Shown piece after piece: positions 37,693 to 39,557 of a DNA stretch of 40,967 nucleotides. Position 1 is the first letter of the stretch, and every line of letters starts with the position of its first letter. The translations under genes and the position numbers were made by a program. The notes beneath the pieces were generated by a model. The model did no database searches. It saw only the letters and a list, made by a program, of their open reading frames with translations, and was not told the origin of the DNA. This DNA comes from an uncultured bacterium (GTDB lineage: Bacteria > Bipolaricaulota > Bipolaricaulia > RBG-16-55-9 > DRJF01): contig CAJXGD010000018.1 of the NCBI GenBank assembly GCA_913053845.1, positions 1 to 40,967 on the forward strand, written 5' to 3'.

Positions 37693-37721
37693 TTGACAGC
37701 GCCGGAGGGCTATGGTATACT
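37693..37721 (+). promoter_or_regulatory. Promoter of rpsF-ssb-rpsR
   Basis: TTGACA (37693-37698), 17 bp, TATACT (37716-37721) with an extended TGG just upstream. Transcription near 37728 would leave a leader of about 17 nt, enough for the Shine-Dalgarno at 37730-37738 and little else. Confidence 0.75.
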
Positions 37722-37744
37722 AAGCACTCAGGAGGTGATATCAA

Positions 37745-38041
37745 CTGGAACGGAAATACGAGGCCGTTTATATACTTAGGCCCACGTTGACTGAAGATGA
37801 CTACACCCAAGCGGTGAGCCGTTATCAGGAAATTGCCAAAGAAAACGGTGCGGCGGTGGAGCGGGTTGATGTCTGGGGGATGCGTACTTTAGCCAGTGAG
37901 ATTGCCCATGAGAAGAAAGGCTATTTTGTGTTGATGGAATTTCGGGCGCAACCGGAGCAATTGCCTTCCCTCAAGGAGCGATTTAAGCTGGACACGAACG
38001 TGTTGCGTCATCGAGTTTTTCGGCTCGATGGGGAGCGCTAG
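37745..38041 (+). CDS. rpsF: 30S ribosomal protein S6 (CTG start)
   Basis: Translation from CTG 37745 gives 98 residues beginning LERKYEAVYILRPTLTEDDY, the conserved first strand of S6. It continues with WGMRTLASEIAHEKKGYFVLMEF. No ATG, GTG or TTG lies between the in-frame stop at 37736-37738 and the conserved block. The first conventional start, TTG 37787, would delete 14 conserved residues. AGGAGG (37730-37735) sits 9 nt before the CTG. S6 binds 16S rRNA with S18, encoded two genes later. Confidence 0.85.
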   Translation: MERKYEAVYILRPTLTEDDYTQAVSRYQEIAKENGAAVERVDVWGMRTLASEIAHEKKGYFVLMEFRAQPEQLPSLKERFKLDTNVLRHRVFRLDGER

Positions 38042-38064
38042 CTCGCCCCGAAAGGAGGAGACCG

Positions 38065-38517
38065 ATGGCGGGTCTAAATCGCGTTATTCTGATCGGCAAC
38101 CTGACCAGAGATCCGGAGATGCGTTACACCCAGAACGGGAACGCGCGGACCACTTTTTCCATTGCCATCAGCACTCGCTACCGTGATCGCGAAGGCAATC
38201 TGCAAGAGACGACCACCTTTGTGCCTATCGTCGTCTGGGGTGCTCAAGGGGAGAACTGCGCCAACTATCTCGCCAAGGGGAGACTGGTCGCGATCGATGG
38301 GCGCTTGCGCATTGACTCCTATCAAACTGAGGAGGGCGAGCGGCGCAAGATAGCCGAGGTGGTCGCCGGCAGAGTGGTATTCTTGGGTGGACGACCGACA
38401 GAGGCTCAAGCAGAGAGCCCTGCGCCCAGTGGAGAGCCGGATGAACCGCAAGCTGCTCCCAGTGAGCCTCAGGAGCCAGCACCAGCGAAGCCAGGAGAGG
38501 AGGAAGTGCCATTCTAG
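38065..38517 (+). CDS. ssb: Single-stranded DNA-binding protein
   Basis: The 150-residue protein has the OB fold (LNRVILIGNLTRDPEMRYT, FSIAISTRYRDREGN, YLAKGRLVAIDGRLRIDSY). A Pro/Glu-rich linker leads to the tip EEEVPF, the Ssb partner-binding tail. It coats single-stranded DNA in replication and repair. AAAGGAGGAG lies 4 nt before ATG 38065. It has the only conventional start in this three-gene operon. Its last codons overlap the rpsR start. Confidence 0.93.
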   Translation: MAGLNRVILIGNLTRDPEMRYTQNGNARTTFSIAISTRYRDREGNLQETTTFVPIVVWGAQGENCANYLAKGRLVAIDGRLRIDSYQTEEGERRKIAEVVAGRVVFLGGRPTEAQAESPAPSGEPDEPQAAPSEPQEPAPAKPGEEEVPF

Positions 38518-38780
38518 GTAGAAGCAGAAGCAAAGGGAGTACCGGTGGAGGTCGGCACCGGGAGGGACGTCGGCGCAAGGGACGGAGGGTTTGTAAGCTC
38601 TGCGAGCGCAAGATCGAACTGACCTATAAACGGCCTCATGAATTGCGACGCTACGTGAACCGCTTGGGCAAGATTCTGCCCCGGCGGGCCAGCCGTCTCT
38701 GTGCCAAACATCAACGGGTAGCCGCCCGTGAGGTCAAGCGCGCGCGGGTGTTGGCCCTCTTGCCCTACGGCGAGCATTAA
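38511..38780 (+). CDS. rpsR: 30S ribosomal protein S18 (ATT start)
   Basis: This frame encodes an 89-residue S18: RVCKLCERKIELTYKRPHEL, RRYVNRLGKILPRRASRLC, AKHQRVAAREVKRARVLALL and PYGEH at the end. It is easy to miss because no ATG, GTG or TTG opens it. The only near-cognate codon in the right place is ATT 38511, exactly 7 nt after AGGAGG (38498-38503). It overlaps the ssb stop by 7 nt. The Gly/Ser/Arg-rich N-terminus is variable in the family. S18 pairs with S6 on the 30S platform. Confidence 0.85.
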   Translation: MLGRSRSKGSTGGGRHREGRRRKGRRVCKLCERKIELTYKRPHELRRYVNRLGKILPRRASRLCAKHQRVAAREVKRARVLALLPYGEH

Positions 38781-38804: not shown

Positions 38805-38888
38805 AACCCAGGTTGTTCCTCAGTTAGCCGAGAGCCTAGTCTATTCCCCTCGGTGCTTCCGCCGGCAGCGCGGGGGTGAGGGGTTTTT
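38805..38888 (+). promoter_or_regulatory. Structured leader of the TerC-family gene
   Basis: CCCCTC (38846-38851) pairs with GAGGGG (38878-38883), followed by TTTTT (38884-38888) and then the ATG. The G-rich 3' arm is also the ribosome site. An alternative stem, CCGAG (about 38828-38832) with CTCGG (about 38849-38853), would disrupt the first. A switch controlling termination or ribosome access is possible. The known manganese yybP-ykoY riboswitch is not clearly recognisable. Confidence 0.35.
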
Positions 38889-39557
38889 ATGGACTTGAAC
38901 GCCCTGGCAGCGTTGGGCAGCATTATCCTGATTGACCTGATCCTCAGCGGAGACAATGCGGTGGTCATCGGGATGGCGGCCAGCGATCTGCCTGGTCCAC
39001 AGCGCCGGAGGGCGATCCTCTGGGGCACGCTGGGCGCGGTGGGGCTACGCGTGCTCTTCACCGCGCTGGCCGCGCTCCTGCTGCATCTGCCCCTGCTGCA
39101 ACTGCTCGGTGGTCTAGTGCTCTTCTGGGTAGCCTTCAAGCTCTTGACCAAACAGCCGAACGGCCATGAGACTATCGGCAGCGGGCGCAGTCTAAGTCAA
39201 GCGATAGGACTGATTATCACCGCCGATGCGGTCATGAGCCTGGACAATATGCTGGCTGTGGCCGCCGCCTCGCAGGGTCATCTGCTGTTACTAATGCTGG
39301 GACTGGCCATCAGCATCCCGCTGCTGATGGTCGGCGCCAGCCTGATCGCCCAGGTGATGGGCCGGATGCCCTGGCTGATCTGGCTCGGTGGGGCCACGAT
39401 CGTCTGGATCGCCGCTCGCATGATCGTCAATGACCCTTGGCTGGACGCTCATTGGGGCCGGCTCAGCGGCCCGGCTCAGTGGGCGCTGCTCGGCGGCGCG
39501 ACCGGCCTGATCCTGCTGATCAGCTGGCTCTGGAACCGCCGCAGCCCTAGCCCTTAG
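38889..39557 (+). CDS. TerC/YjbE-family membrane protein (putative metal exporter)
   Basis: The 222-residue protein has about seven hydrophobic helices. Two inverted-repeat halves each carry an acidic metal site: IDLILSGDNAVVIGMAAS and ITADAVMSLDNMLAVAAAS. YjbE/YkoY relatives export manganese, some to load exported enzymes. The ATG directly follows a T-run after a GC-rich stem. It sits 108 bp after rpsR and could share that transcript or respond to a metal through its leader. Confidence 0.85.
   Translation: MDLNALAALGSIILIDLILSGDNAVVIGMAASDLPGPQRRRAILWGTLGAVGLRVLFTALAALLLHLPLLQLLGGLVLFWVAFKLLTKQPNGHETIGSGRSLSQAIGLIITADAVMSLDNMLAVAAASQGHLLLLMLGLAISIPLLMVGASLIAQVMGRMPWLIWLGGATIVWIAARMIVNDPWLDAHWGRLSGPAQWALLGGATGLILLISWLWNRRSPSP

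Follow-up and report, generated by a model that had tools for sequence, protein, structure and literature searches.

A conserved, probable CTG start codon of rpsF in an order of Bipolaricaulota: a possible throttle on ribosomal protein S6

Which codons start the genes for ribosomal proteins S6 and S18 when neither gene offers a standard start, and could such starts have a regulatory role? The question arises from the window, a stretch of 40,967 nucleotides (contig CAJXGD010000018.1) from an uncultured bacterium of the phylum Bipolaricaulota. An earlier note on this DNA had remarked that rpsF (S6) and rpsR (S18) have non-standard starts while ssb between them has ATG, which we confirmed in the window sequence, and had proposed that the lineage may tune S6 and S18 as a pair through IF3-sensitive initiation, uncoupled from ssb.

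Start codons of rpsF and rpsR in the window

The genes around rpsF lie on the + strand in the order greA, a likely S1-domain gene (its matches do not reach the curated thresholds), rpsF, ssb, rpsR and then a gene for a YjbE-family membrane protein. The features of the region are as follows.

37693..37721, + strand: predicted promoter of the sigma-70 type, TTGACA-17-TATACT, matching 11/12
37728..37744, + strand: rpsF leader of about 17 nt, deduced from the promoter, the transcription start being a prediction
37730..37739, + strand: Shine-Dalgarno sequence of rpsF, AGGAGGTGAT, a 10-base match to the usual 16S tail
37745..37747, + strand: CTG, very likely the rpsF start codon, from the sequence and the survey of relatives
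37745..38041, + strand: rpsF, ribosomal protein S6, 98 aa (TIGR00166, 78.9 bits, cut-off 42.9; PF01250)
38052..38060, + strand: Shine-Dalgarno sequence of ssb, AAGGAGGAG, from the sequence
38065..38517, + strand: ssb, ATG start (TIGR00621, 133.9 bits, cut-off 53.95)
38493..38503, + strand: Shine-Dalgarno sequence of rpsR, AGGAGAGGAGG, within the ssb tail
38511..38513, + strand: ATT, the only plausible rpsR start codon, from the sequence
38511..38780, + strand: rpsR, ribosomal protein S18, 89 aa (TIGR00165, 63.9 bits, cut-off 38.75; PF01084)

The rpsF frame has an in-frame stop, TGA, at 37736-37738, so that TAT and CAA alone separate the stop from the CTG at 37745-37747, and the AGGAGG core of the Shine-Dalgarno sequence lies nine bases 5' of this CTG. 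The next standard codon, TTG 37787, is 14 codons downstream and has no Shine-Dalgarno match, and a protein begun there would lack the first 14 residues. When S6 is read from the CTG and aligned to the solved S6 chain that fits it best, its residue 3 faces residue 2 of that chain, which indicates a normal N-terminus. CTG 37745 is the sole plausible rpsF start in this sequence and is very likely the true start codon. The promoter-like site upstream was one of two in 2.4 kb, compared with 0.8 expected in shuffles, and predicts a leader of about 17 nt, the length that the earlier note had given. Folding of the RNA from 37728-37790 was no better than that of shuffles (z 0.15), and a structured start region at rpsF was rejected on this ground.

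In the rpsR frame, ATG, GTG and TTG are absent from the upstream stop to TTG 38643, which itself lies within the conserved domain. Among ATT, ATC, ATA and CTG codons, ATT 38511 alone precedes the S18 domain; it lies seven bases 3' of AGGAGG 38498-38503, in the ssb codons for the last Pro-Phe, and thus overlaps the end of ssb, whose stop TAG is at 38515-38517. Farther along the strand, a terminator-like site (38854-38878) precedes the YjbE-family metal transport gene (38889-39557; TIGR03717, whose model name is R_switched_YjbE). A scan of the window for Rfam models gave zero matches, including near this gene.

Two database proteins bear on the soundness of the sequence. The first residue of an S6 relative (95% identical, 84 aa) is an L where the window has its TTG, and that of an S18 relative (98% identical, 63 aa) is an M where the window has GTT. 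Apparently the gene callers met no standard start farther upstream in either, as far as can be told from the proteins alone; the contigs that carry them are short (1122 and 816 bases), and contig ends may be the reason. Since these near relatives differ from the window, its rpsF and rpsR starts do not look like a plain assembly error. To judge by the 98% identical S18 relative, the ATT state of rpsR may be common to the window's species. The S18 proteins next in similarity, of 101 and 104 aa, have L and M as first residues and hence called standard starts. There is also a blind spot in annotation here, as gene calling that admits only ATG, GTG and TTG would shorten S6, as the 84-aa relative suggests.

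Distribution and history of the starts in Bipolaricaulota

The pool of Bipolaricaulota comprised 100 genomes, 91 of them with an S6 match, and rpsF was read in all 91; the window's order accounted for 19 genomes, 18 with S6, and the window's family was represented by the window's genome alone. Each family was given one fixed offset for its start, picked once its sequences had been read. With the start placed to suit the Shine-Dalgarno sequence, rpsF begins with CTG in 9, GTG in 64, TTG in 14 and ATG in 4 genomes, so that 87 of the 91 are non-ATG; if any ATG within 22 codons is counted instead, 17 are ATG and 74 non-ATG. All nine CTG starts belong to the window's order (9 of its 18 genomes) and span its five families (f1, 1 of 1; f2, 1 of 1; f3, 5 of 5; f4, 1 of 10; f5, 1 of 1). 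The remaining nine rpsF genes of the order, all in f4, comprise six with GTG or TTG and three with ATG. For comparison we took the 80 best from 507 related loci; of these 80, 31 are titled Bipolaricaulota, Acetothermia or Fraserbacteria. In the 48 other loci, an uneven sample because it is what one scan yielded minus the phylum, S6 starts with ATG in 39, with GTG or TTG in 9 and with CTG in none. One locus titled Neomarinimicrobiota (L171) has the same rpsF start region as G081, a member of Bipolaricaulota f7, and is probably from a misnamed genome.

Each of the nine CTG genes has a Shine-Dalgarno match of 6-10 bases at an aligned spacing of 8-9, and in eight an in-frame stop lies 1-3 codons 5' of the CTG, directly adjacent in two; in the ninth, G006, the stop is 40 codons 5'. 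In G004 an ATT lies one codon 5' of the CTG, and either could be the start. The S6 proteins of this group are only 36-51% identical to the window's. Since these 9 of 18 genomes share the CTG and lack ATG, GTG and TTG from the upstream stop as far as the conserved first strand of S6, the CTG is very likely the start and would brake S6 synthesis. Predicted promoters scoring at least 9/12 lie within 160 nt of 16 of the 18 rpsF genes in the order, with 23-45 nt from the end of the -10 element to the start, so a short leader is predicted in the relatives as well.

We then asked how specific this state is, using a rule that takes the start expected from the E. coli protein and looks for any ATG, GTG or TTG in a range reaching 25 codons upstream and 3 codons downstream of it. 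The rule flags exactly the nine CTG copies among the 91 rpsF genes. The controls came from the S10-spc-alpha operons: secY, rpoA and the genes for 26 ribosomal proteins, 28 genes in all, with 434 copies in 18 genomes, of which 380 were testable; in 52 of the other 54 the N-terminus could not be aligned to E. coli, and two lay at contig edges. Twelve of the 380 were flagged. Ten of these have an ATG or GTG just beyond the tested range, and the other two are rpsE genes with a long N-terminus, one with a TTG farther upstream (G004) and one with a standard start in a wider range (G003). None of the 380 copies tested was therefore left needing a non-standard start, which makes the CTG specific to rpsF within the genes examined. 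A lenient recount of the 434 copies scored 411 (372 ATG, 28 GTG and 11 TTG); it accepted starts up to 20 codons downstream and is too loose, since rpsF would pass it too. As a further non-ATG start of a ribosomal protein gene, rpsE (S5) apparently begins with TTG in G000, G002 and G008 (L106, L100 and L097). The CTG start of S6 is a striking and deeply kept exception.

To place the starts we used a tree built from 18 genomes on 3215 aligned operon positions, a third of which were missing in some genomes; it was rooted at the midpoint and had no outgroup. It omits G018, and G005 is the member of the order that gave no S6 match. The CTG is found on every branch except that of g4 and g8 of f4; g4, with ATG, and g8, with GTG or TTG, form one fully supported branch, whose sister is the CTG genome G013. 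Read most simply, this distribution means that the CTG was present at the base of the order and was lost once; a root inside the g4 and g8 branch would alter this reading.

The rpsR gene gives another picture. Among the 91 genomes, 80 have an in-frame ATG (74 by script and six of f8 by eye), ten offer TTG alone, and for the window none of the standard codons was found. The ten belong to f7, and in them the TTG overlaps the ssb stop and AGGAGGT or AGGAGGTG lies within the ssb tail (L004, L007, L008, L043, L141, L142, L145, L147, L148 and L150). The ATT is confined to the window's genome, and elsewhere in the order, in 17 genomes, rpsR has an ATG in frame. Under the strict rule two rpsR genes are flagged, those of G000 and G004, the latter having an in-frame ATG farther upstream. 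The ATT of rpsR is a local event, outside any conserved pair, and the idea that a CTG/ATT pair is conserved in the lineage falls with it. Relatives with ATG at both genes, which the earlier note had named as evidence against its proposal, do exist (G003, G007 and G015), though in a derived branch.

The S6:S18 leader and the initiation machinery

In many other bacteria rpsF carries a leader RNA that binds the S6:S18 complex. PMC4647458 describes how the E. coli complex acts on its leader and inhibits rpsF, and how a B. subtilis form of the leader binds S6:S18 in vitro. The Rfam model of this leader, RF02893, had no match in the window or in any of the 100 Bipolaricaulota genomes. It scores 110.1 bits on E. 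coli, but E. coli was the only match among 14 control genomes, and because the model is this insensitive we built one from Bacillota leaders. A model with an automatically derived structure of four pairs (R1) was poor and was replaced by R2, built from 25 Bacillota leaders with a structure written by hand. Tested on 24 held-out outgroup loci, some of them close kin of the training set, R2 recovered the rpsF leader in 16; it misses the E. coli leader. It found none upstream of rpsF in the 91 Bipolaricaulota sources; its 21 weak matches in the phylum (E up to 5; the best 12.4 bits, E 0.12) include none just 5' of rpsF on the same strand. With both models unmatched upstream of rpsF, no known S6:S18 leader was found, and to that extent the earlier note is supported. 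The predicted distance between the end of the -10 element and the start codon, 23-45 nt across the 16 genomes and 23 nt for the window, would also leave little room for a leader of 62-85 model positions. Across the phylum, weak starts coincide with the missing leader; a replacement of the one by the other is conjecture.

As to initiation, PMC5472188 states that IF3 represses codons other than ATG, GTG and TTG and that infC is controlled in this way; both infC and sigR are described there as genes that a rare start codon puts under IF3. That IF3 represses CUG is drawn from the general statement. PMC11497404 adds that CUG complexes are less stable. The window's genome encodes IF3 (TIGR00168, 180.2 bits, cut-off 60). 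In all 17 infC genes found in the order the start is ATC, ATT or ATA, 5-9 bases 3' of GAGG, and 14 of them have no in-frame ATG, GTG or TTG in the stretch searched; the window's infC has an ATG 8 codons after its ATA, so that even there the rare start is unforced. In other families, 16 new loci were inspected, one at a contig edge, and ATC, ATA or ATT stands at the expected place in the other 15, 12 of them with no ATG, GTG or TTG in the stretch printed. The infC loci with ATC, ATT or ATA across Bipolaricaulota are L076-L092 and L240-L255. Because infC itself begins with such codons behind a Shine-Dalgarno sequence, an IF3 that discriminates between start codons is likely in the lineage, and start-codon control of the IF3 type probably operates in the order.

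The 16S tail, GGATCACCTCCTTT, is present in its usual form in the window's genome and was found in 15 of the 19 genomes of the order, including all nine with CTG. We also weighed an altered initiator tRNA and dismissed it, since a search with the anticodon-loop pattern gave CAT in 16 of the 19 genomes and CAG in none. The initiator-type CAT loop was found in seven of the nine CTG genomes (the three genomes with no match include the CTG genomes G006 and G010), and the match in G000 is a tRNA-Met (cat) by ARAGORN.

Explanations and comparison with known systems

The reading that we hold, on balance, to be somewhat the more probable is that the conserved CTG behind a Shine-Dalgarno sequence acts in this order as a translational throttle on S6. 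Ribosomes would initiate S6 at the CTG, behind the Shine-Dalgarno sequence and the predicted short leader; the weak codon would lower S6 output relative to ssb, which has an ATG and its own strong Shine-Dalgarno sequence; and selection would keep the CTG. Since CTG falls in the class that IF3 represses, and GTG and TTG fall outside it, rpsF of the order is predicted to be under IF3, and the level of IF3 would then alter S6 output. Such a throttle would be dispensable, given the order's three genomes with ATG and six with GTG or TTG. The Shine-Dalgarno sequence could also largely offset the CUG, in which case there would be no net throttle, and, with one gene concerned, a neutral freezing of an old substitution may be all that is seen. 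According to that second account, to which we give an appreciable but clearly minor chance, an ancestral GTG or TTG drifted to CTG a single time, when the order arose, and is compensated by the Shine-Dalgarno sequence, so that S6 is made at a normal and constant rate. The well-spaced Shine-Dalgarno matches of 6-10 bases in nine of nine genes speak for it, as do the GTG and TTG starts in most of the remaining phylum and the tendency of non-ATG starts toward stronger, compensating Shine-Dalgarno sequences (PMC5622118). It fits less well that ATG, GTG and TTG are each a single base change away, yet the CTG has been kept on all branches of the tree but one while the tested S10-spc-alpha genes keep standard starts.

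The other explanations fare worse. Co-regulation of S6 and S18 as a pair, uncoupled from ssb, draws on the window, where both partners have non-standard starts and ssb has ATG, and on the 98% identical S18 relative for which gene calling seemingly found no earlier standard start; as a lineage-wide scheme it is refuted by an ATT in one genome of 91 and an in-frame ATG in the rest of the order, and the called standard starts of the next closest S18 proteins also count against it, so that we regard it as improbable. It is still harder to believe that S6 begins at a downstream standard codon or that the CTG is an assembly error for ATG or GTG. Downstream standard codons do occur, the nearest of them 6-33 codons in, and the window's genome is a draft in 91 contigs; against this, the same CTG stands in nine draft genomes, seven of them also present as named public records, and of the downstream codons inspected (at most two per genome) all would cut into or delete the N-terminal strand of solved S6 chains, and only two, codon 10 of G012 and codon 30 of G006, have even a 4-base Shine-Dalgarno match. 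The S6:S18 leader might also act on a longer transcript reading through from the upstream genes, which lie on the same strand with no terminator-like site on the + strand before rpsF, or might persist in a diverged form that such narrow models, RF02893 matching E. coli alone and R2 missing it, would pass over. With no Rfam match in the window, no RF02893 match among the 100 genomes and no R2 match upstream of rpsF in the 91 sources, this is the least credible of the explanations considered.

Returning to the throttle on S6, if it operates, the CTG kept across the order points to start-codon strength as a heritable means of controlling the supply of a ribosomal protein. A wider version, that Bipolaricaulota dropped the S6:S18 leader, that start-codon strength controls S6 instead and that in the window's order the CTG places rpsF in an IF3 regulon with infC, we put forward tentatively and rather doubt. 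If it were true, the supply of S6 would be set by the balance between free IF3 and 30S subunits. According to PMC5472188, GTG and TTG are outside the class repressed by IF3, so IF3 cannot explain the weak starts across the phylum. The earlier note had called its scheme undescribed. Control by IF3 through a rare start is known for infC and sigR (PMC5472188), and these precedents limit any novelty to its use on S6; for S6 alone the claim could hold. Among the matches listed in a search of the open-licence literature, no ribosomal protein gene with control of this type by IF3 and the start codon was found, and no title or abstract concerned a CTG start of rpsF or the start codons of Bipolaricaulota.

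Three known systems can be set beside rpsF. The RpsF_leader (RF02893) controls the same gene in E. coli, according to PMC4647458, but it is an RNA structure 5' of the start, is unmatched here, and would find the leader predicted here too short. In the AUU/AUC autocontrol of infC, as in rpsF, a start outside AUG, GUG and UUG stands behind a good Shine-Dalgarno sequence, and infC has such starts in the same lineage; infC, however, answers to its own product, whereas rpsF is a ribosomal protein gene with CTG. In Streptomyces, as described in PMC5472188, sigR has a GTC start that is repressed by IF3 and is likewise an extra gene under a rare start codon, which there also fixes its output relative to that of the gene following it in the operon. 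It differs in being a regulatory gene with GTC in which the effect was shown by experiment, while rpsF encodes a structural ribosomal protein and its CTG is known from sequence. Measured against the class formed by infC and sigR, rpsR has its non-standard start in the window only (1 of 91 genomes), whereas rpsF has a non-standard start, with no standard alternative at the N-terminus, in 9 of the 18 genomes of the order.
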